Position numbers and translations under genes: made by a program. A model generated the notes under the pieces. It ran no database searches. It saw only the letters and a program-made list of their open reading frames with translations, and was not told where the DNA came from. Positions 13,532 to 59,101 of a DNA stretch of 64,000 nt are shown one piece after another; the stretch's first letter is position 1; the number at the start of each line of letters is the position of its first letter. This stretch comes from a virus. The DNA is taken from IMG/VR virus record IMGVR_UViG_3300034103_001746, positions 85,533 to 149,532 of that record; one strand, given 5' to 3'.

Positions 13532-13559
13532 ATTATAGAAGGTCTCTGATCGGTGTCAA
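13532..13559 (-). promoter_or_regulatory. Perfect sigma-70 consensus promoter of ssb
   Basis: On the minus strand TTGACA (13554-13559) and TATAAT (13532-13537) are separated by exactly 16 bases, ending about 32 bases upstream of the ssb start codon, which has a good AAGGAG site. The -35 overlaps the stop of the polymerase C-half gene. Both hexamers match the bacterial consensus fully, so host RNA polymerase should use it early. Confidence 0.9.
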
Positions 13560-15181
13560 GATTTTGCGATGTAAGCCTTTTCCACTATGAGCGAATCCCC
13601 GGTCTTTGACCTATTACCTTTCACTATGATAACATTGCTTCCAAACAACAAGTTTCTATAGCTTCTGTATTGCTCTGGAAAAAATACAACAGAATCTAAC
13701 ACACCAGAACCATCTGTTAATGTTACAAATGCCATCTCTAAACCGGGATTCTTTCCTGTTTTGGTTTTGGTAACACTAATATTGTCTACCTCTCCACATA
13801 ATATGATATTATCTTTATTGAGACTATTTTTAAATTCTTTACAAGTTGTATTAGTCATACTAATATCATACATATCAACCTTGGAACACGTTATACTACA
13901 ACCGAGCGTTTCTTCCTCTGTATCCGCTATCCATTCTGGATTATCTTCTAAAGCATATGGAGGTCTCTTTAAAGTATTAAGTAAGTTTTGTACTACAGTT
14001 ACTCTGTTTTTATTGAGTTTGCCTATTTTCATTAATCCTATAAAAGCATCTTCTAAATTAGAATAAGAATATATATTTGTTAATATCGTTCCGATTTCTT
14101 TCTTTGTCAATTCATTTATTAAACTCAATTCAAACAACATAGAGTTTCTGGTCTTTTTTAAAAAAGACAAGGCCCCGCTCTGAATTAAAGATTTTGCTGC
14201 TGTAGAATTAATGTCTGATAGTATCATTAAAGCTGTTTGAATCCAGTTCAATTTATTTAAATCTATTTGCTTACTAGATATAATATTATTTAGTTTTTCA
14301 TATACAGCATTTCCAAATCCCTTGATATCTGTTAAGCCAAAATAAATTTGATTATTTTTTAAGATAAATAACTTGTTCAGATTACGAATGTCTGGGGTGC
14401 TAACAGTTATATCCATCTCGCTAGCATTTTGTACTAATTCTTTAATTTCTGCTTTTGGATCAATTTTATCTTTAGCAAATCGTAAATAAGATGCGAAAAA
14501 TATTTTTGGGAAATGCGATTTGGTATACGCTGATAAATATGCATTAATAGCATAGCTAACAGCATGTGACTTATTAAAAGAATATCTTTGAGACTTTTCA
14601 ATCCAACCAAAGATCTGCTCTGCCTCATCTTCTGTGACTAAATTTAGATTTTTAGCACCCAATAAAAATTTTGATTTAACTTTAGCCATTTCTTCTGGCT
14701 TTTTCTTTCCAATAGCTTTTCTTAACATATCGGCTTCTTGTAGATTAAAACCAGCGATAGTTTTAGCGATCTCCATCGCTTGTTCCTGATAAATCATTTC
14801 GCCATATGTTGTTTTCAAAATGGGTTCTAGAGATGGATGAAAATTATCTATAGTTTCTTGTCCATTTTTTTTATCTATATAGTGATTAGTCACACTCTTT
14901 CCATCACGTATAGCCTCTAAGCATCCGGGTCTAAGAATACTGATTAGGGCAGATAATTCTTCAATATTGGAAGGTTTTAATTTTTTAGCAATAGATCTTC
15001 CTAGTCTAGACTCCAACTGAAAACAACCTTTTGTGTTTCCATCAGATATTAAATCCCATGTTTTATAACATTCCAAATTGATAGTTTCAATACGGGGATC
15101 AAAGGACAATTTCATATCCTCTCCTTCGCCCGAAATAATATTAAAAGAACATCCGCACGGATATTGAAATTTTTTAGACAT
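13556..15181 (-). CDS. dnaE: DNA polymerase III alpha subunit, C-terminal half
   Basis: A 541-residue protein matching the fingers and C-terminal part of DnaE. Key segments are GCFQLESRLGR, ILRPGCLEA, YQEQAMEIAKTIAGF, MLRKAIGKKKPEEMAK and YSFNKSHAVSYA, then a helical region and an OB-fold near the end (VTVTKTKTGKN to VIIVKGN). The palm with the catalytic aspartates is in a separate gene (16050-17921), so the two halves must associate to work. The start has a short Cys motif (PCGCSF) I recall from other phage DnaE proteins. It overlaps the exonuclease gene by eight bases. No intein motifs are seen at the break. Confidence 0.92.
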   Translation of the reverse strand: MSKKFQYPCGCSFNIISGEGEDMKLSFDPRIETINLECYKTWDLISDGNTKGCFQLESRLGRSIAKKLKPSNIEELSALISILRPGCLEAIRDGKSVTNHYIDKKNGQETIDNFHPSLEPILKTTYGEMIYQEQAMEIAKTIAGFNLQEADMLRKAIGKKKPEEMAKVKSKFLLGAKNLNLVTEDEAEQIFGWIEKSQRYSFNKSHAVSYAINAYLSAYTKSHFPKIFFASYLRFAKDKIDPKAEIKELVQNASEMDITVSTPDIRNLNKLFILKNNQIYFGLTDIKGFGNAVYEKLNNIISSKQIDLNKLNWIQTALMILSDINSTAAKSLIQSGALSFLKKTRNSMLFELSLINELTKKEIGTILTNIYSYSNLEDAFIGLMKIGKLNKNRVTVVQNLLNTLKRPPYALEDNPEWIADTEEETLGCSITCSKVDMYDISMTNTTCKEFKNSLNKDNIILCGEVDNISVTKTKTGKNPGLEMAFVTLTDGSGVLDSVVFFPEQYRSYRNLLFGSNVIIVKGNRSKTGDSLIVEKAYIAKS

Positions 15182-15869
15182 TGCCTGAAAAAGAATCCTT
15201 AAACTTAATTTTTTGAGCCAAATTTCTGTGTAGTTTTAGAAACCTAATAAGAATTTCTGCACAATCTTGTACGTCTTTTAGAGCGTCGTGAGCGCCTTCT
15301 TTCGATAATCCAACATAATCCCTCACAGAATCAAGAGTATAGCTCTTTAAGTCATTATTGTATTCAAACCAATAAAAAATTAAATTCATTATATCAACTA
15401 CGTCTCTTGGGAAAAAGACATTAGAGGTACCTTCTTTATTTGTATTTCCATATTTACCACTAAGCCTATCTATAATTTTGAGATCAAATCTATTGATATT
15501 ATATCCAGCAGCAATTGGGGCTGTAAATTGACTCTTTTTAGAAGACCTAGTATGATACATATCTAGATAATTTACAAACAGTTTCCAAGATTGTTCTTGA
15601 GAAGGGTAGTTTTTCCATTGGCTTAATATATCGTCTTTAGAACAACTTTTAACTTTTGCATGAAAATCCAGAATGTCTGTGGTATAAGTATAGTTATCAT
15701 CATTCGCCAAAACTTCCGGCTTAAAGAAAATATTAAATTCGGATTTTGGTATAACCTCTAATTTGATCGGGTCGATCATGACAGCAGCTATTTGTACAGG
15801 ACTGCATTGCTTAGGATCGGATCCATCTGTTTCAAAATCGAATACGCAAATTTTGTTATAATTAATCAT
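15174..15869 (-). CDS. DEDDh 3'-5' exonuclease (DnaQ-like proofreader)
   Basis: A 231-residue protein with the full DEDDh set: VFDFETDG (Asp11, Glu13), GYNINRFD, and GAHDALKDVQ with the final His and Asp. It should remove mispaired 3' ends, as the epsilon subunit does for Pol III. It is encoded between the two halves of the polymerase and overlaps its neighbours by eight bases on each side, which supports a role as the dedicated proofreading subunit. RNase T-like or structural use is a less likely alternative. Confidence 0.92.
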   Translation of the reverse strand: MINYNKICVFDFETDGSDPKQCSPVQIAAVMIDPIKLEVIPKSEFNIFFKPEVLANDDNYTYTTDILDFHAKVKSCSKDDILSQWKNYPSQEQSWKLFVNYLDMYHTRSSKKSQFTAPIAAGYNINRFDLKIIDRLSGKYGNTNKEGTSNVFFPRDVVDIMNLIFYWFEYNNDLKSYTLDSVRDYVGLSKEGAHDALKDVQDCAEILIRFLKLHRNLAQKIKFKDSFSGNV

Positions 15870-16049: not shown

Positions 16050-17921
16050 TCACCTATCTCCTAGAATATCTTGAATTGTCATAATTTTATCCAACATTGC
16101 TACTCCTAATATATCAAATTTAATAATACCAATTGATTCTAAATCTTGCATTTCCATTCCCGCTATTAATTGCTTATTCTTAGAGTCATAAACCATTGGA
16201 CAGGCTTCGTTCAATGGTAATGCACTGATAGCAATACCGGCCGCGTGTTTGGATTGATTCGATTTAGTACCCTCTAATCTAATAGCTTGTTCGAAGCGTT
16301 TGGCAAGTGGTCCTTGTAGTTCATTTTTTTCATCAATAAAGCACCACTCTTTGAGTTTGTCCGGATTATTCTCCAAAGCCCATCTAATAATAGACGCTTC
16401 TCCGGTTTCTTCTTTCATTTCTTGTAAATCGTCTGCTATTTTGGCTTCGTCCGGAATATTTTTAGTAATTTTATTCATTTCATCAAAAGAAATATTGCCA
16501 TATACTCTTAATACGTCCTTCAAGGCTCCTCGACCCTTAATAGTATTAAATGTAATCATTTGAGAAACTTTATCGTGACCATATTTGTTTTTAATATATT
16601 CAATAATAGTTTCTCTCTTATTGATCGGTACGTCCACATCAATATCTGGCATGGATATATGGTCTTTTGAGTTACGACCAGCATTATAAAATCGATCAAA
16701 CATTAGATTATATTTCATCGGATCAATACTGGTAATACCAATAAGATAAGATACTAAACAACCGGCAGCACTACCTCTACCCGGACCCGGAAGCCAAGAG
16801 TTATGTCTTACATAGTTAACAATATCTTGTACTATCAAAAAGTAGCTACTAAGTCCAGCTCCTTGTAGAACTTCTAGTTCATATTTAATTCTATCTACAT
16901 ATTGTTGTTGATCGTCTTTATTAATAGTGTTTGCTATTTTGTCTCTCCAGCCATCTCTACACAGTTGTCTTAGATATTCGTCTGGATTATATCCATCAGG
17001 ACAAGCAAACGGAGGAAGCCTAGGCTTACTCAAAACATTATATTCTTCACACAAACCAGCAACAAAATTGGTATTTTCTATTTCTTCTTCTGTATGCAGA
17101 CTATTCATTTCTTCTTGTGACAACAAATGAAAGTTATCAGAAGTAAAAAAACAAGAAAGAGGAACTTCTTCGTCATTGCTAATTTTTCTACTAATTTCTG
17201 GAAATGTTGTCTTTAAATTGTTACACAGTAGGATTCTTTGGTCATTAGCATCTTCTTTACGACAATAATGAGCATCTGGTGTGCAAACCACTTTAGTATT
17301 AGTGAGTTTTCCCAATTCTCTGACCACACCGGTTAAATCTTTTTGGATCGGGGTGTTGTTCATATCCATTAACTGAGATTCTAAAAAGAAATTATCTTTA
17401 CCAAAGATATCTTTCAATATACCTATTTGCTCTAGTCCTACATTTTTCCAATCCTTAATTAATGCGTTATTTTGAACTATCTTGTCCGCTAATACAGAGC
17501 CTAAATGACCACAAATGCCTATAATGTCGCCATCGCAAAATCTAGCAACATGATCTAGACTTAATCTGGGTTTATGATAATAAAAATCTGGCCTATTAGA
17601 TTCAGACACCAACTGAATAAGTTTATTCCAACCCTTTAAGTTTTTTGCCAAAACAAGAAAATGACTTAAGTCTTTATTAGACTTGTCTTGTATTGTGGGG
17701 TCTTGATCACAAACATAAATCTCGCAACCTAGTATGGGTTTGATGCCCTTAGACTTCATTTCTGTATAAAACTTAATAGCCCCAGCTATATTTCCGTGAT
17801 CTGTTAAGGCACAAGCAGATGCCCCAATTTCTTGACATCTTTCTGATATTTGTGATGGTTTTGATAGTCCGTCCAACAAACTAAACATTGAGTGACAATG
17901 TAAAGGTATATAATTCCTCAT
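16050..17921 (-). CDS. dnaE: DNA polymerase III alpha subunit, N-terminal half (PHP and palm)
   Basis: A 623-residue protein. Residues 1-~270 are a PHP domain with metal-type residues (HCH at 8-10, TDHGN at 40-44, GCE at 65-67, DAH at 216-218), so phosphoesterase activity may be retained. The palm follows, with LPGPGRGSAAG and catalytic PDIDVD (Asp426, Asp428) and the third aspartate in KFDILGV (Asp603). The protein ends 20 residues later, where bacterial DnaE continues into the fingers. The remainder is encoded by 13556-15181. It starts within four bases of the nuclease gene upstream. Confidence 0.93.
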   Translation of the reverse strand: MRNYIPLHCHSMFSLLDGLSKPSQISERCQEIGASACALTDHGNIAGAIKFYTEMKSKGIKPILGCEIYVCDQDPTIQDKSNKDLSHFLVLAKNLKGWNKLIQLVSESNRPDFYYHKPRLSLDHVARFCDGDIIGICGHLGSVLADKIVQNNALIKDWKNVGLEQIGILKDIFGKDNFFLESQLMDMNNTPIQKDLTGVVRELGKLTNTKVVCTPDAHYCRKEDANDQRILLCNNLKTTFPEISRKISNDEEVPLSCFFTSDNFHLLSQEEMNSLHTEEEIENTNFVAGLCEEYNVLSKPRLPPFACPDGYNPDEYLRQLCRDGWRDKIANTINKDDQQQYVDRIKYELEVLQGAGLSSYFLIVQDIVNYVRHNSWLPGPGRGSAAGCLVSYLIGITSIDPMKYNLMFDRFYNAGRNSKDHISMPDIDVDVPINKRETIIEYIKNKYGHDKVSQMITFNTIKGRGALKDVLRVYGNISFDEMNKITKNIPDEAKIADDLQEMKEETGEASIIRWALENNPDKLKEWCFIDEKNELQGPLAKRFEQAIRLEGTKSNQSKHAAGIAISALPLNEACPMVYDSKNKQLIAGMEMQDLESIGIIKFDILGVAMLDKIMTIQDILGDR

Positions 17922-41219: not shown

Positions 41220-42143
41220 TTATAGGTAATCAAAACCATAGTCTGGTAATTTTTGTACAGGAAATCCGTTAAAATTGCTAAATGCGTAGGTGGCATTTTG
41301 TTTAATCATTCCCTCTGCCACATCGCTATGAATAAGAAATGACCCATCTGGGATCGGACCCCAATCTGGATGTCCACCATCATTCCATTTTCCCCAACTA
41401 TTTTGTACTAAAAATGCTGTGTCCCCATTAGTATCATCACAAGCTATCCAAGCCATACAATGAGCCCAACTACCACTGGTTCTTGAAAATCCTTTGCTAT
41501 CTCTTTTATTACTAAAACCATAATTAGAACATACAGCTAATCCATATCCATTAGCTAGAGCGTCTCGTGCTTCTTCAACGCTTGTAATTAAAGATACTGT
41601 TTTAATTTGATGATCATTAGCTAAATCTAATACTTTGTCTGGAACGCCACGACCTCCCCAACCAGCGCCAAGCATCCCGTCGTATTTAGTAAGATCAACA
41701 ACTCCTTTATAATTTTTACGAACAAGAATACCTCCAATTTTATTTACAAATTCAGCAGCTTTGCTGCCTGTCATACCTTGACCACTCCAACCACGAGCAC
41801 CATAAATAGCTTCTGTAGCTCCTCTGGCTACCCAGCTCTCCTTTTCTCTTAATATATCTATCTCTACTGCTCTACTAATATCACATGCGTTTCTTGTTCC
41901 ATGACTTACGCAATCACCAGTAACTTGTCTCTCTTCATAAGGCTTCTTATCAAATTTTAATACGCTTTTGTATGGTGTTGATAGTTTGCCTTTGCCACTA
42001 TTTGTAATTTTAGAGCTAGCATCACCAAAGTATGGATATTTCAAGGTTGTCATTAAATGATCAAATTCTAATTGATTCCAAATGGCTCCCTGAAAGCCCT
42101 GTCTATAATTATCATAAAGATCTACTGGAGATAAACGAGGCAT
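41220..42143 (-). CDS. Papain-like cysteine protease (C1-type)
   Basis: A 307-residue protein. QVTGDCVSHGTRN supplies the oxyanion Gln73 and nucleophile Cys78; SWAHCMAWIACDD supplies His228; LVQNSWGKWNDGG supplies Asn248, the C1A triad order. It lacks a visible signal peptide. It could process virion or host proteins. It is the active partner of the Gly-substituted paralogue at 38442-40052. The stop is followed by the short peptide gene. Confidence 0.88.
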   Translation of the reverse strand: MPRLSPVDLYDNYRQGFQGAIWNQLEFDHLMTTLKYPYFGDASSKITNSGKGKLSTPYKSVLKFDKKPYEERQVTGDCVSHGTRNACDISRAVEIDILREKESWVARGATEAIYGARGWSGQGMTGSKAAEFVNKIGGILVRKNYKGVVDLTKYDGMLGAGWGGRGVPDKVLDLANDHQIKTVSLITSVEEARDALANGYGLAVCSNYGFSNKRDSKGFSRTSGSWAHCMAWIACDDTNGDTAFLVQNSWGKWNDGGHPDWGPIPDGSFLIHSDVAEGMIKQNATYAFSNFNGFPVQKLPDYGFDYL

Positions 42144-43015: not shown

Positions 43016-43398
43016 AGTCCAGCCTCTCTTTTAATAAAAACACCCGTATTTCTAAAAATCGTTACCGTAGCATCAATACTAGCACTCACCATTATCATGA
43101 GAATATTTTTGATGTACTTATGTATTATAGGCTCAATAATATTTGGAACAAAGGGGACATCTACTACTAAAAATATTTTATCATAAAAACTATTTAATAG
43201 ATCCATTGCCAAAGCTTTTTTATCAGGATTGCTTAGATCATTACCAATAGCTTCTATAATCTGTACAACAGCTGCTGTGGTTAATTGTAATAGTTTCCAT
43301 GCTTCACCAAGAGCAAATCTTTTAACTTTATTTACTCTTTCTTTTGTGTTGATTATTAGTTTTTCTACTTCTGTTCTTATTAGTTCTCGGCTTGACAT
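43012..43398 (-). CDS. Hypothetical protein overlapping the holin-like gene
   Basis: A 128-residue protein, largely helical, with two long hydrophobic-rich helices late in the chain (NILMIMVSASIDATVTIFR). An AGAGGTAG ribosome site precedes its ATG. It overlaps the 3' end of the holin-like gene by 71 bases in another frame, which is more than the usual overlap here. No family recognised. Confidence 0.65.
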   Translation of the reverse strand: MSSRELIRTEVEKLIINTKERVNKVKRFALGEAWKLLQLTTAAVVQIIEAIGNDLSNPDKKALAMDLLNSFYDKIFLVVDVPFVPNIIEPIIHKYIKNILMIMVSASIDATVTIFRNTGVFIKREAGL

Positions 43399-43687
43399 TT
43401 TTTACTACCTCTTTGTTTATTACCGTTAGTTCTTCTATTTGTTTATTTGATTCTATTTGATTGCTCCACCAGATTTTCTTAATTTCATTACGCCCCTTCA
43501 CATATCGAAATAACACTGTCAACTGACCAATAATAAGAATTAGTGCTTCTAAACCTCGACTAGTTTCTTGGATCAGATCTTCTTTTTGAGAATTACTATC
43601 TAATAAGCCTACTAAATATAATCCACTGAATAAAAAGCTTACTAGTGTAAACCAAAATTCGCTAGTTTTATATCCTGGTTTTAACAT
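43328..43687 (-). CDS. Holin-like protein
   Basis: A 119-residue protein with the start KPGYKTSEFWFTLVSFLFSGLY, seen in phage holin-type membrane proteins, a second hydrophobic helix (RGLEALILIIGQLTVLFRYV) and a highly basic tail (TNKNRSRKTNNQHKRKSK). Two membrane segments with a basic cytoplasmic end fit a class II holin. If so it would permeabilise the inner membrane at lysis. It starts downstream of the 70-residue protein gene. Confidence 0.75.
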   Translation of the reverse strand: MLKPGYKTSEFWFTLVSFLFSGLYLVGLLDSNSQKEDLIQETSRGLEALILIIGQLTVLFRYVKGRNEIKKIWWSNQIESNKQIEELTVINKEVVKNVKPRTNKNRSRKTNNQHKRKSK

Positions 43688-43736
43688 ATTAAAAACCTAT
43701 CTATAAAAGAAAGGAATATATCACACCAAAACATTA

Positions 43737-43949
43737 TCAACCACTGGGTGCTACAGCACCACCGTAATAATAGCTTGGATCATCAAATCTATGGTCAAAC
43801 TTATTTTGAATATTTGCTATTGTTAGATTTACTGGATAATTAGGTCTGATTAATAATTTAGAACTTTTACCGGTTGGTAGTGTTGAACAAACGGCTCTTT
43901 TATTATTAATGACTATGCCACTTATTGCTGTTGTAATATCATTGGCCAT
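43737..43949 (-). CDS. Small hypothetical protein
   Basis: A 70-residue protein with a good AAGGAA site and an upstream AACTATAAT-type sequence. It contains a basic middle (IVINNKRAVCSTLPTGKSSKLLIRPN) and a Tyr/Gly-rich end (DDPSYYYGGAVAPSG). The composition resembles short virion or surface proteins. Not recognised. Confidence 0.65.
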   Translation of the reverse strand: MANDITTAISGIVINNKRAVCSTLPTGKSSKLLIRPNYPVNLTIANIQNKFDHRFDDPSYYYGGAVAPSG

Positions 43950-45407
43950 ATTTTTTTCCTTATTATAGTTGGATATTTATTATTACACCAAGTATGGTAA
44001 GATAAATATTGTGCTAATATTTTATAATAATTCTTCTAATGGTCCCATTTGATTCAAATCTTTAAGTCCAGGATCTGACATTCCAAACAAATCTCGTGGA
44101 GCGCCAGCTAGATGCAAAAATGTTAAGTACATATTAGCAATTGTTCTATGATTAGGTTGTCCATAGCCTGGATAATCTATATAACGTCCACTTTTTAATT
44201 TACCACCCATATCTCCAATTACTACCATCGGCCACTCCCAACACCGACTGTGATGAGCTTCAGCGGCATCACTTAGATAAACGATCACGGTGTTGTCGAG
44301 CATCGTACCGTCCCCTTCTTTTATTGCTTCAAGTTTCTTACATAACCCCGCAATCAGATCAAAATGGAAGTGACGTATCATATCGTACAACTCCAACTGT
44401 GACATTCCGTTCTCTCCGCCTCCGTGACCCATATGATGCTTGCCCATCTTGAGTCCAAGGCCAGAGAAATTAATATCAAAATCCTGTTCGCCAGCCGCCG
44501 ACGAGATTGTTACCACATTTGTTAATCCACTAATCAATGAGGCTGCTGCTATATCAAATTGAGCATCTAATCGGTCTGTTTCAATAACACTATTATATTT
44601 ATTATTTACTACTGGACCCTTTTCTCTTAAAGTATGTTTTATATCGTTTAGTTTGCTCTGTCTATTACTTAATGCTTCAAAAGTTTCTATATAGGCTGTT
44701 AATTGTTGTCGTTCTGGGCCAGCAAGATTAGCTTCTGCTATTTTTATATCATTTTTAAGAAAATCTAAAAGATTATTTTTTGCTATAAATTCTTGTTTTG
44801 CATTACCTTCGGCAATGCTTCCAAATAAATTATTATATGCTTGTTGTGGTTGACATATAATTGGCATTAATTTAGCTTTATCCCACGCCGAAATGCTATA
44901 TACCACATTATTGTCGAGTTTTTTAGAAATACCAAGTCCAACAAATGGGAAAATACTAGGAAGAGCTTTAGCAAGAGCGCAGTCGATAGTTTCGCTAATA
45001 GATGTTGCTCCTTTGCGACCTCCAGGCACAACTCCTAAAGCTCCATGATCATTAGAATGTCCACCTCCGCATACGCGACCAGATAATCCATTAACAATTG
45101 TTAATTTATTTTGCCATTTAGCTACTGGCTCTAGAGACATTGGTAGTTTTTTCCCTGTCAATGATATGTTAATAAGCTCTGGAGGACCATTAAAAGGTTC
45201 TTCTGGACGCTCAGGGCGTATAATGCCTTCTGGTGGCATTTGTTGAGGTTTTACTCCATTGCTTTCAACAACAAAAACAAATCGTTTTGCTGTAATTGGT
45301 AAACCAGCCGCTTCTGCTTTTAACTTATTAAGTATAGGATATAAAAACGTAGCTGCTGCTGATAAACCAAGAGCTTTAAGCGTGTTTCTGCGCTGTTCCA
45401 AAAACAT
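43841..45407 (-). other. See DUF1552 entry; region boundary note
   Basis: This span includes the 5' part of the 70-residue gene, a 72-base gap (43950-44021) with AACTATAAT, and the DUF1552 gene. The gap shows no hairpin terminator on the minus strand; transcription of DUF1552 could run into the small gene. Confidence 0.3.
44022..45407 (-). CDS. DUF1552 protein with Tat signal
   Basis: A 461-residue protein. RRNTLKALGLSAAATFLYP (Arg6-Arg7) is a twin-arginine export signal. The body follows DUF1552: FVFVVESNGV, LTIVNGLSG, GGGHSNDHGALG, TIDCALAK, LDAQFDIAAASL, and the C-terminal IVYLSDAAEAHHSRC and MVVIGDMGGKLKSGRY. DUF1552 is abundant in Planctomycetota and a few other phyla, linked with secreted or cell-wall proteins, function unsettled. 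A full-length, exported copy in a phage is unusual and suggests capture from the host. Confidence 0.92.
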   Translation of the reverse strand: MFLEQRRNTLKALGLSAAATFLYPILNKLKAEAAGLPITAKRFVFVVESNGVKPQQMPPEGIIRPERPEEPFNGPPELINISLTGKKLPMSLEPVAKWQNKLTIVNGLSGRVCGGGHSNDHGALGVVPGGRKGATSISETIDCALAKALPSIFPFVGLGISKKLDNNVVYSISAWDKAKLMPIICQPQQAYNNLFGSIAEGNAKQEFIAKNNLLDFLKNDIKIAEANLAGPERQQLTAYIETFEALSNRQSKLNDIKHTLREKGPVVNNKYNSVIETDRLDAQFDIAAASLISGLTNVVTISSAAGEQDFDINFSGLGLKMGKHHMGHGGGENGMSQLELYDMIRHFHFDLIAGLCKKLEAIKEGDGTMLDNTVIVYLSDAAEAHHSRCWEWPMVVIGDMGGKLKSGRYIDYPGYGQPNHRTIANMYLTFLHLAGAPRDLFGMSDPGLKDLNQMGPLEELL

Positions 45408-45444
45408 AGTATTTGTAATTCCTTTTTGGCATGAGACCTGATTT

Positions 45445-45450
45445 ATTATA
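45445..45450 (-). promoter_or_regulatory. Possible -10 element upstream of DUF1552
   Basis: TATAAT on the minus strand lies in the 107-base gap, within GAACTATAAT. No convincing -35 is visible at 16-17 bases. It resembles the AACTATAAT before the 70-residue gene at 43949. Confidence 0.3.
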
Positions 45451-45514
45451 GTTCAACACAGAACTATTGGTACTTTGTCGATTTTTTGAAACTTAACACA
45501 AAGGTATATTTGTA

Positions 45515-45835
45515 TTAGTGTCGTTCTATTCTGTCTTCTAAAGCTTCTAGTGTTTTACCTAGCGTTGCTATTTGAATTTTCAGTTCTGTCATGACTTCTG
45601 TATTTCTCTGTAAAGCTACAGATAATGCTGCTTGACTTTCTTTATTTATTGCTAATCTTTCCATAATAAATTGTCTATCTTGAAGATATGGACTTTCATT
45701 TTTTATTAACTCAGCCACTTCTGATTTAGTTACCATTTTTTTTCCTATTGCTACCCAAAATCCCATCATAGTCACAATAATTCCGATACTTGTTGTAGCA
45801 ATATTTTCCCAAAAATGAATAATTGTATCACTCAT
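45515..45835 (-). CDS. Membrane-anchored coiled-coil protein
   Basis: A 106-residue protein with one hydrophobic segment (ATTSIGIIVTMMGFWVAIG) and a long amphipathic C-terminal helix with heptad-like spacing (ALSVALQRNTEVMTELKIQIATLGKTLEAL). The layout resembles spanin-like or holin-associated anchors. A role with the lysis block to its left is plausible but unproven. Confidence 0.7.
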   Translation of the reverse strand: MSDTIIHFWENIATTSIGIIVTMMGFWVAIGKKMVTKSEVAELIKNESPYLQDRQFIMERLAINKESQAALSVALQRNTEVMTELKIQIATLGKTLEALEDRIERH

Positions 45836-45901: not shown

Positions 45902-45935
45902 AGAAAAAGCCGACAGTACTTAGTACTATCGGCTT
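45902..45935 (-). terminator. Strong intrinsic terminator downstream of the 184-residue gene
   Basis: On the minus strand an AAGCCGA-(C/A mismatch)-AGTAC arm pairs with GTACT and TCGGCTT around a three-base loop, followed by a run of T residues broken by one C. It lies about 25 bases after the stop at 45961. The stem also reads well on the other strand, but no plus-strand gene ends here. Confidence 0.88.
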
Positions 45936-46557: not shown

Positions 46558-47211
46558 TTAGGAATTTAGTTTATTTTCTTGTAAAAGTTTTAAGGCATTA
46601 ACAGAATTGACCTTTATACCAAAGAGTTTGGTTTTATAGATATTTTTAACTTGACCAATATTCCATATGTTTCCATTACAAATAATATTTATAGGAACTT
46701 TTTTATTAATTAAAGCAGAGGCGAGAATATTATCATTTATATCATCCAAAAGATACCCTGTGGATGGATAAATTGTATCTATTCCTCCAGTTAAAAGTAT
46801 TTGAGAAACTTTATAAAGTAAATCATAAGTAAAAATACGATATTCTAAGATATATCTTAAAGAGACATTATGTTTTTGACACAATTCTAAACTTTGTTTT
46901 ATGTCATCTCTAAACTTATCATATTTTCTATTACATAGATAGTATGGTTGTGCTACTAAATTAATAACTTGAGCACCCTGTTTAATTGCTGATTCTATTG
47001 AAACTAATCTAGTTTTTGTATCAGATATGCCTAAAGGGTAGTCTATAGAACTAGATATAATAATATGTTCTGGTAAATTATTTCTGGCTAATTTAATATG
47101 ATTTAAAAAAACAGAAACAGTATTTACGGAGGTGGTTTGAACTTCTTTAAAAAGACCTTTTAATTCTTCGTCTGATGCTGATATATCATATGCAGAAAAT
47201 TCTGTTATCAT
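46558..47211 (-). CDS. DeoC-like TIM-barrel protein lacking the Schiff-base lysine
   Basis: A 217-residue protein following the deoxyribose-phosphate aldolase pattern: SSSIDYPLGISDTKTRL, AIKQGAQVINLV, YILEYRIFTYDLLYK and IYPSTGY. The last corresponds to the aldolase FIKTSTG motif but has Tyr148 where the catalytic Lys would be, so aldolase chemistry is unlikely unless another Lys takes over. It overlaps the ClpP-like gene by four bases. The purpose of a DeoC fold in a structural-type gene block is unknown. Confidence 0.8.
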   Translation of the reverse strand: MITEFSAYDISASDEELKGLFKEVQTTSVNTVSVFLNHIKLARNNLPEHIIISSSIDYPLGISDTKTRLVSIESAIKQGAQVINLVAQPYYLCNRKYDKFRDDIKQSLELCQKHNVSLRYILEYRIFTYDLLYKVSQILLTGGIDTIYPSTGYLLDDINDNILASALINKKVPINIICNGNIWNIGQVKNIYKTKLFGIKVNSVNALKLLQENKLNS

Positions 47212-56465: not shown

Positions 56466-57215
56466 CTATTCTTTATTGAACTCAATGTTTTCTATAATCC
56501 ACTTTTTATACATACTAATTCTAGTGTGACCTGCTTCGTCTCCGTAAGTTGAGTCTGGTTTTTTATCCTCTGCTATAACACATGAGTTAATACCAGCTAA
56601 TTTGTTTCCTATAAATAGGCCACCCCCACTATCTCCACTAGATATTAAAAATTCTAAAGCTGTTTTTTTATTGTTGACAGATGGCGAACATATTAATAAA
56701 TGTCTATCAATAGAATCAATTCTATTTGATCCTGCTCTTTGTTGTGTATCGGATTTGTTGGCCCCAGTATTAAAATTACCATGTAACCCAAATCCAGATA
56801 TAGAACACACCTTGCCTATCTCGTCATCTTTATCATATAGTTCGGGATAAAATTTTAATCCAATATCATCATCACACCAACCAATAGCAATATCATATAT
56901 TCCAAAATTCTGTTCATTAAAATCTTTGTGCGTAATAATTTTAGATACAGATATTTTTTTACTATTAATGTTTAAGGTGCATGTTTTAGAGCCTGCAACA
57001 ACGTGTGCTGCTGTAACTATCCATCTTGGTTTTATAGCCACAGCAGATGCACAATATGCTTTTTTATCTTCTGTTTGACCACAAAGTTTACCTACATAAA
57101 CAAAATTTTTAGCATATTCTATGTATCTTGAATCTGGAGTAGCTGGGTCTATAGTTCCGGCTAGTAAAATTGAGCTAAATAATGATACTATGAAAAATAA
57201 AATTAAATGTTTCAT
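56466..57215 (-). CDS. Exported trypsin-like serine protease
   Basis: A 249-residue S1-family protease with a signal peptide (LILFFIVSLFSSILLAG). The triad is complete: WIVTAAHVVAG (His71), GIYDIAIG (Asp108) and SSGDSGGGLF (Ser196). Several Cys may form disulfides. It may act in the periplasm or outside the cell on host envelope proteins. TATAAATA lies ~65 bases upstream. Exported S1 proteases are uncommon in phages. Confidence 0.9.
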   Translation of the reverse strand: MKHLILFFIVSLFSSILLAGTIDPATPDSRYIEYAKNFVYVGKLCGQTEDKKAYCASAVAIKPRWIVTAAHVVAGSKTCTLNINSKKISVSKIITHKDFNEQNFGIYDIAIGWCDDDIGLKFYPELYDKDDEIGKVCSISGFGLHGNFNTGANKSDTQQRAGSNRIDSIDRHLLICSPSVNNKKTALEFLISSGDSGGGLFIGNKLAGINSCVIAEDKKPDSTYGDEAGHTRISMYKKWIIENIEFNKE

Positions 57216-57406: not shown

Positions 57407-58414
57407 TTACGATAATACTTTAGATGCTATTAAACAACCTTTAGAAACAGCATGTAAAGGATCTTCTGCGTGTCTTACTTCTTTTATATTTAGTGGAAAA
57501 CTATTTTCTTCTAATTTTTTACGAAATAAATCTATGTATCCATCTGCCTGCGAAGTGCCGCCCGCCACAACAATAGATAGAGGATTTTTAAATTTGGGTA
57601 AAGCTTTATGTAATGTTAATGCTGAAGCTAATTGTTTAGTAGTATAATCTATTAGTCTATCATAGTATGCTGATACCGCAGCAAGCACCGGATTATCGTT
57701 CGGTTCGCCTATTTTAAAATTACCCGCCTCCTTCTCTGCCTGAACAACACTGTCCTGTTCTCCGGTCGCTACAGCACTCATACGATCAATCCAATCGCCA
57801 GATTTGGTCGTACTAAATACAACTGTTGGTTCGCCATTGAGCATAACACAAACATTAGTCATTCCAGCACCACAGCTAACTGCTATTCCTGTATAATCAT
57901 CATTCTCTAATTCAGCATAGCATAATGCTTCTGCTTCATTCACAGATCTAGCATCATAACCACATTCTGATAGAATGGTTTTAACCACATCCTCATGATA
58001 TCCAACATCAAAATCTTCATCTTCTTGATCTACTGGTTGTGCTGGAACACAAAAAACAAGTTTTTCACCGGGTTCCGATGCCTGCCCGACTACTTCTTTT
58101 AAGATAAATGCTAAAATTCTTTTTGCATTTTTTTCTTTTGCTGATACGACACCCTTATGCATCGGTCTTTTTGCTGTGTCGTTTCTTTCTATGGCTTTTT
58201 CTATAGCGTCCTTACCCAATAATATAAAAGAATTATCTGACTCATCTTTTATAAAAACTTTTCCTGATAAGCCTTTTTCTATCATTTTTGTGGCTACGGG
58301 TGTTGTTGGCTTAATTATATAGAAGGCATCTCTAAAGTCTTTATAGATAACGCCGCTCTGAGAATCTTCTGATAGAACAATGAAACTTGTTCCAACGTCT
58401 AAACCTTTAGCCAT
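57407..58414 (-). CDS. Actin-fold (ParM/MreB/Hsp70-like) ATPase
   Basis: A 335-residue protein with phosphate-1 loop GLDVGTSF (4-11), a phosphate-2-like SCGAGMTNV (180-188) and adenosine-loop VVAGGTSQADG near residue 285. The usual Asp of phosphate-2 (DxG) is Ser180, so ATP hydrolysis may be altered. SGDWIDRM follows, as in related actin-like proteins. It may form filaments for genome positioning or partition. It is followed by a membrane protein and an exported thioredoxin upstream. Confidence 0.83.
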   Translation of the reverse strand: MAKGLDVGTSFIVLSEDSQSGVIYKDFRDAFYIIKPTTPVATKMIEKGLSGKVFIKDESDNSFILLGKDAIEKAIERNDTAKRPMHKGVVSAKEKNAKRILAFILKEVVGQASEPGEKLVFCVPAQPVDQEDEDFDVGYHEDVVKTILSECGYDARSVNEAEALCYAELENDDYTGIAVSCGAGMTNVCVMLNGEPTVVFSTTKSGDWIDRMSAVATGEQDSVVQAEKEAGNFKIGEPNDNPVLAAVSAYYDRLIDYTTKQLASALTLHKALPKFKNPLSIVVAGGTSQADGYIDLFRKKLEENSFPLNIKEVRHAEDPLHAVSKGCLIASKVLS

Positions 58415-58416
58415 AA

Positions 58417-58719
58417 TTACCCTTTCATATTTTTAAGCTTATTAATAGCCGAATCAATCTTTTCTGTTGACTCTTTCTTTTCTCCTAGTTGGGTATATTT
58501 TTTTTCCAAACCATCCGTATCAATATTGGTAACATATTTTTTGTCATCAATATTAATTTGTGTAGCAGTAAGTGTATTCTGGTCAAAAAAAGATTTCGGC
58601 TTAGTATTATATACACCATTATTTTGGCCTATTTTTGCCAAAACATATCCCATAAAGAAGAATAGGATATTTGTTAATATCAGAATACAAATAATAATAT
58701 TACTTGTGTTGTCTAGCAT
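58417..58719 (-). CDS. Small membrane protein before the actin-like gene
   Basis: A 100-residue protein with an N-terminal membrane helix (IIICILILTNILFFFMGYVLA) and a polar, Lys/Asp-rich C-terminal region. It starts two bases after the actin-like gene's upstream boundary and overlaps the thioredoxin gene by 20 bases. It may anchor the actin-like filament, inferred from context only. Confidence 0.65.
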   Translation of the reverse strand: MLDNTSNIIICILILTNILFFFMGYVLAKIGQNNGVYNTKPKSFFDQNTLTATQINIDDKKYVTNIDTDGLEKKYTQLGEKKESTEKIDSAINKLKNMKG

Positions 58720-59101
58720 CGTTTATCCATGTTAAATATTTGACCTTACCCTTATATCCAACATAGATTGATACTTCAACTTTATCTTTTATGATCCTTG
58801 AGTCTGGCAAACTTTTAACTCCATATTCTTTAGCAAGATCTTTATCTTTGTCTATATCTATAGAACATACAATGAAATCATCTAATGCTTTGGCAGCATC
58901 TTCATCCTCTAAATCTTTATGAAGAACACCACAGTATCGACACCAATCTGCCCCGAATATTACTAGCACAGGTTTCTTTGAAGATTCTGATAATGCAATA
59001 GCATCTACCAGATTATTCATGAAATATGCGTTTTCTCCATAAGCCCTATCGCTAATCATGCCTAGCATAATGACAAATAGTAATAGGGTTTTCTTTATCA
59101 T
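58700..59101 (-). CDS. Exported thioredoxin-like protein
   Basis: A 133-residue protein with a signal peptide (LLLFVIMLGMISDRAYG), the active-site WCRYC (Trp53-Cys57) and the cis-Pro region KSLPDSRI. It should be a periplasmic disulfide oxidoreductase. Several phage proteins here are Cys-rich, so a role in their folding is plausible. It overlaps ruvB by four bases. Confidence 0.88.
   Translation of the reverse strand: MIKKTLLLFVIMLGMISDRAYGENAYFMNNLVDAIALSESSKKPVLVIFGADWCRYCGVLHKDLEDEDAAKALDDFIVCSIDIDKDKDLAKEYGVKSLPDSRIIKDKVEVSIYVGYKGKVKYLTWINDARQHK

Follow-up and report, generated by a model that had tools for sequence, protein, structure and literature searches.

Why should a tailed phage carry a gene for a putatively exported protein of a family otherwise found in bacteria, from which bacteria was the gene taken, and what might it do during infection? 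These questions are raised by an open reading frame at 44022-45407 on the minus strand of a 64,000-base window, which is the whole stretch of DNA analyzed here and covers 85533-149532 in a virus record of 149,532 bases. The gene is complete, with an ATG start, and encodes a 461-aa protein of the DUF1552 family (PF07586, HXXSHH). In a Pfam search, residues 42-351 (44355-45284, minus strand) aligned with positions 1-305 of the 307-position profile (E 4.2e-38; score 132 bits, cut-off 30), in agreement with the first-pass annotation of a full-length DUF1552 protein, and this is the sole PF07586 match in the 149.5-kb record. The N-terminus, MFLEQRRNTLKALGLSAAATFLYPILNKLKAEAAG, begins with two adjacent arginines ahead of a stretch of moderate hydrophobicity, and a twin-arginine (Tat-type) signal is assigned to residues 1-34 (45306-45407, minus strand), running from RRNTLK through the hydrophobic stretch to AEAAG. 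The twin-arginine signal that had been noted at the outset is thus present, and both R6 and R7 are kept in 63 of 65 aligned DUF1552 proteins; the motif, together with its conservation in the family, points to Tat export of the phage protein. The phage copy has all of the family-conserved residues (the RR pair, D142, S173, H324, H328, E364, D371, and S379), including the two histidines H324 and H328 (44424-44438, minus strand), which are invariant in all 65 aligned proteins and are putative active-site residues or metal ligands. As a protein, the phage copy is an ordinary member of its own family, for no member of which was a published function found.

An AlphaFold2 model built with 65 diverse sequences reached a pLDDT of 83.8 and a pTM of 0.85; a first model, built with 16 close sequences, was dropped (pLDDT 52). 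The top match of the model in a Foldseek search of the PDB was the lipoteichoic acid synthase LtaP (E 2e-4, probability 0.99, TM 0.32-0.35), and almost all of the top matches listed belong to the alkaline phosphatase superfamily (sulfatases, phosphonate hydrolases). The DUF1552 fold reads as a distant AlkP-like core: this superfamily provides the best matches to the model, yet at TM-scores of only 0.3-0.37 and about 10% identity. Conserved His and Asp residues were found in the DUF1552 alignment. No PDB entry was matched by sequence, and no significant match to the model was found in a viral structure library.

The record is that of a phage, as had been proposed, and of a lake type. It encodes a terminase large subunit that an intein/LAGLIDADG insertion divides (G000:20138-23227; L003:138-3227) in its left part, a ClpP-like head protease at window position 47208, and, in the window, RecA and a class II ribonucleotide reductase (RNR), and approximately 160 related IMG/VR loci share the genes that flank the DUF1552 gene. 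The intein in the terminase bears a LAGLIDADG homing endonuclease domain. By eye, the window also encodes a DnaB-like helicase and a PolIII-alpha-like polymerase, the latter apparently in two ORFs (16050-17921 and 13556-15181, minus strand) that are separated by a DnaQ-like exonuclease gene (15174-15869). An actin-like protein (57407-58414, minus strand) has a whole-length match to the Volactin (haloarchaeal actin) Pfam family (E 4e-63), and its relatives in the phage collection are confined to two uncultured large phages without a host, at 31-34% identity. A trypsin-like protease and a thioredoxin (56466-57215 and 58700-59101) appear by eye to be secreted-type phage proteins with an N-terminal signal-like sequence. 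A subtilase (L002:15005-16216), likewise of secreted type, has an N-terminus, FETLENKSVLSS, that by eye resembles planctomycete LEPR-XLL starts; no family match was found for this motif.

A bacterial gene might have been joined to a phage contig during assembly, and it can be said in favor of such an artifact that no other contig confirms the junction and that near-identical records may escape the search tools. However, the DUF1552 gene lies on the same (minus) strand as its neighbors, conserved phage genes directly flank it on both sides, and its codon-position GC contents (0.52/0.38/0.24) include a third position like that of the other phage genes. The phage codon usage and shared strand make an assembly chimera very unlikely, to the point of being almost negligible.

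Among viruses, the gene stands alone in the collections searched. No match to DUF1552 was found in 50,697 GenBank phage records, no second viral copy among 2.9 million IMG/VR contigs that were scanned three times, none in the 159 related phage loci, and none in 50 related phage records examined by HMM search; the PHROG collection gave no convincing match (best E 0.009), and no paper coupling DUF1552 with a phage was found in the literature searched. These scans covered IMG/VR, GenBank phages, and the related records; divergent copies may escape those that were pattern-based, and near-identical records of the same virus may stay hidden. The phage DUF1552 gene is thus the only viral copy in the collections searched, which bears out the early remark that it is not a usual phage gene; because there is a single phage copy, this rarity is not separable from sampling.

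When 84,980 genomes of bacteria and archaea were scanned, full-length relatives with 60-74% identity turned up in the Planctomycetota and the Verrucomicrobiota, often from lakes, and more distant relatives in Myxococcota and Alphaproteobacteria. The nearest cellular copy, in the Verrucomicrobia MAG K_Offshore_80m_m2_222 (L011), is 74% identical over residues 2-461. A phylogenetic check had been suggested; in the maximum-likelihood tree that was built from 39 proteins, the phage copy pairs with the L011 protein (support 100/100) within a Planctomycetota/Verrucomicrobiota clade, that is, it groups with cellular PVC proteins and not with phage proteins. This nesting within a cellular PVC clade indicates a cellular origin, and the donor is, on this phylogeny, a PVC bacterium of the Planctomycetota or Verrucomicrobiota. 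The subfamily to which the phage copy belongs is sparse, since other DUF1552 copies in the family of the L011 MAG (11 genomes) are at most 54% identical and only 2 of 199 Planctomycetota genomes have copies above the strict cut. The first-pass annotation had described DUF1552 as typical of Planctomycetota and related phyla; the PVC affinity stands, but the nearest copy is filed under Verrucomicrobia and the family occurs also in Myxococcota, Sphingomonadales, and others, so the gene is a pointer to PVC bacteria in general and not specifically to planctomycetes. The DUF1552 contigs L044, L034, and L048 are of lake-type Verrucomicrobia, yet they come from genome records under the names Klebsiella pneumoniae and Akkermansia muciniphila, which are probably misnamed MAGs.

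The phage and L011 proteins are alike in their length of 461 aa, their Tat motif, and the positions invariant in the subfamily. Identity by codon position is 0.75/0.89/0.26, the synonymous distance is saturated, and GC at third positions (GC3) is 0.236 in the phage gene compared with 0.809 in L011 and 0.55-0.94 in cellular homologs generally. Saturated third positions alongside second positions that are 89% identical indicate that the gene has long been resident in the low-GC phage and has been kept there by strong purifying selection. An accidental acquisition, in which a host gene recently entered by chance or by generalized transfer and serves no phage function, would fit the finding of DUF1552 in one phage only. 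Against it, GC3 has come all the way to the phage level and the third codon positions are saturated, yet the protein is intact at 74% identity, whereas a passenger of such age would be expected to have decayed; the purifying selection, which extends to H324 and H328, likewise favors a kept cellular activity over carriage by chance. We therefore regard a neutral passenger as highly improbable.

The place that the gene occupies in the phage genome provides a further indication of its use, which is probably in the cell envelope of the host. Relatives of the phage were collected by scans with two neighboring genes, giving 159 related IMG/VR loci, near-duplicates included; one query was a conserved phage protein (p41220; 41220-42143, minus strand) that is papain-like by eye and has no Pfam match. 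In these loci, which represent a widespread phage clade, a hypervariable slot of 0 to approximately 9 kb (43688-45514 in the window; the same interval in L095-L253) lies between two conserved borders: upstream, a transmembrane and coiled-coil protein (p45515; 45515-45835, minus strand) that is up to 99% identical in relatives, and downstream, a transmembrane protein (p43328; 43328-43687, minus strand) that is holin-like by eye. Within the slot and directly downstream of the DUF1552 gene is a conserved small gene for a 70-aa protein, "MANDI" (p43737; 43737-43949, minus strand). The recognizable slot proteins of the relatives are mostly of receptor-binding types: among 88 scanned, the domains included Mtd_N (major tropism determinant; 8), the FGE/C-type lectin fold (7), and laminin-G (4), and others of the 88 had domains of the phage tail, FN3, collagen, subtilase, and sulfotransferase types.

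One relative, L163 (IMGVR_UViG_3300029933_000001), has in this slot a gene (L163:5829-7076) for a 415-aa DUF1559 (PF07596)/SBP_bac_10 protein (Pfam E 4e-19) whose leader is of the prepilin type. Like the DUF1552 gene, it encodes an apparently exported protein of Planctomycetota type and lies directly upstream of the MANDI homolog, but it belongs to an unrelated family and has a pseudopilin-like N-terminus. Its GC3 of 0.19 corresponds to phage codon usage, and its identity to the cellular copies sampled is mostly 27-42%, along only a part of the protein. DUF1559 was found in the slot of L163 alone among 50 related records, and when 147 non-redundant slot proteins from the relatives were screened by hydropathy, a clear N-terminal export signal was seen in this protein only. 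In two phages of the clade, therefore, the slot is occupied by two unlike proteins of PVC type that bear export signals. A broader proposal, that the receptor-binding slot of the clade carries captured PVC envelope proteins that are exported by host routes to remodel the host surface or periplasm, we consider rather unlikely; if true, a tropism locus would here be serving host mimicry, unlike ordinary metabolic auxiliary genes.

The slot may be transcribed on its own, given a terminator-like 13-pair hairpin followed by a T-run (45907-45935, minus strand) upstream of p45515, although two terminator-like sites were found in the region compared with 1.7 expected by chance. A motif, TGGTGTA/TGGTGTGATA, occurs approximately 25-60 bases before late and structural genes (window positions 43990 and 43728, both minus strand; 2967, 25453, and 30266 in the left part, all plus strand) and also upstream of p43737 homologs in many relatives; it is a candidate late promoter. 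No exact GGTGTA motif was found upstream of the DUF1552 gene. A shared element, AACTATAATAA, upstream of both the DUF1552 and MANDI genes was set aside: there are two exact copies and, when one mismatch is allowed, it is not above chance.

In cells, DUF1552 usually has a partner. A PSCyt3 gene lies directly upstream of the DUF1552 gene in 31 of 36 cellular loci, and in L011 its product has the Pfam domains DUF1595, DUF1592, DUF1588, and DUF1585; on Sphingobium plasmids, DUF1552 adjoins cytochrome c and cytochrome b genes, and on one such plasmid it follows an annotated DUF1592 gene. In freshwater Verrucomicrobia, PSCyt2 and PSCyt3 genes adjoin two gene families without known function, and are suspected to have a part in carbohydrate use or metabolism (PMC5615132). 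Single PVC genomes have 14-33 matches to the phage DUF1552 protein. In contrast to the cellular copies, the phage gene is an orphan: no DUF1592, DUF1588, or PSCyt3 was found in the phage record, and the phage protein would thus need the partner of the host, or act alone.

We propose that a tailed phage acquired a DUF1552 gene from the genome of a PVC bacterium, and that the gene entered the variable receptor-binding slot and stayed until its synonymous sites had turned over, with selection keeping the protein. The product, made with its Tat signal, would fold in the cytoplasm, be exported to the host periplasm, and there do the job of the host copy together with the host PSCyt3 (DUF1595-1592-1588-1585) cytochrome protein, such that a periplasmic redox or hydrolytic step, perhaps acting on a surface or substrate carbohydrate, might be sustained or redirected during infection. 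This reading, with Tat export of the phage protein and action beside host PSCyt3 in the periplasm, is the likeliest of those considered, and we hold it to be about evenly poised between right and wrong. The retained Tat motif and the purifying selection lend indirect support to the earlier suggestion of an auxiliary gene acting outside the cytoplasm. As with phage auxiliary metabolic genes, DUF1552 is host-derived, codon-ameliorated, under purifying selection, and inside a phage genome; it differs from them in being putatively exported, in lying in a receptor-binding slot and not in a metabolic cluster, and in having a benefit that is putative.

The same slot offers other readings, and since its contents are otherwise adhesins, a part in host recognition is conceivable. 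In the main alternative, an exported AlkP-like hydrolase or surface protein could alter or mask a receptor on the host surface, leading to superinfection exclusion or aiding the release of progeny, and this would suit the receptor-binding contents of the slot in relatives (Mtd_N, FGE/C-type lectin, laminin-G, and phage-tail domains, and sulfotransferases), the pilin-like DUF1559 of L163, and the best fold matches, LtaP and the sulfatases being enzymes of surface polymers. A surface role is possible but in our view doubtful: a catalytic nucleophile was not found, and the protein is near its cellular form with the family-wide residues kept, so it probably retains the cellular reaction. The placement of DUF1552 among tail-fiber genes might instead suggest a virion component, with a host-derived adhesin or depolymerase borne on the tail, but the kept Tat signal would take the protein out of the cytoplasm, where virions are assembled, and the tail-fiber-type genes of the slot are generally without export signals; this we judge improbable. 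Action in the host periplasm alongside PSCyt3 is the reading that we prefer.

The gene had also been taken as a clue to the host. Its affinity, together with the DUF1559 protein of L163, suggests that the phage may infect PVC bacteria, although the donor of DUF1552 is not necessarily the present host. For 20 kb of the phage window, no CRISPR spacer match was found in 392 Planctomycetota and 289 Verrucomicrobiota genomes; no spacer match to a different phylum and no prophage came to light. The search of these 681 PVC genomes returned weak matches only, and eleven short ones that were checked had no CRISPR-type repeats around them. In the three contigs richest in matches, the coding sequence was RNR-like and DNA-polymerase-III-alpha-like, and none of it was syntenic with the phage. 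The search of the 50,697 phages, and those with p41220 (which matched none of the named phages) and the actin-like gene, likewise yielded no named relative whose host is known.

Phages of Planctomycetota and Verrucomicrobiota are little known. A phage clade of approximately 160 IMG/VR loci with two host-type exported proteins in one slot suggests infection of PVC bacteria. For the DUF1552 family, a copy that has long persisted by itself in a phage with little change indicates that the protein can be selected for without its usual partner in the operon, and this provides a simple handle on its function.
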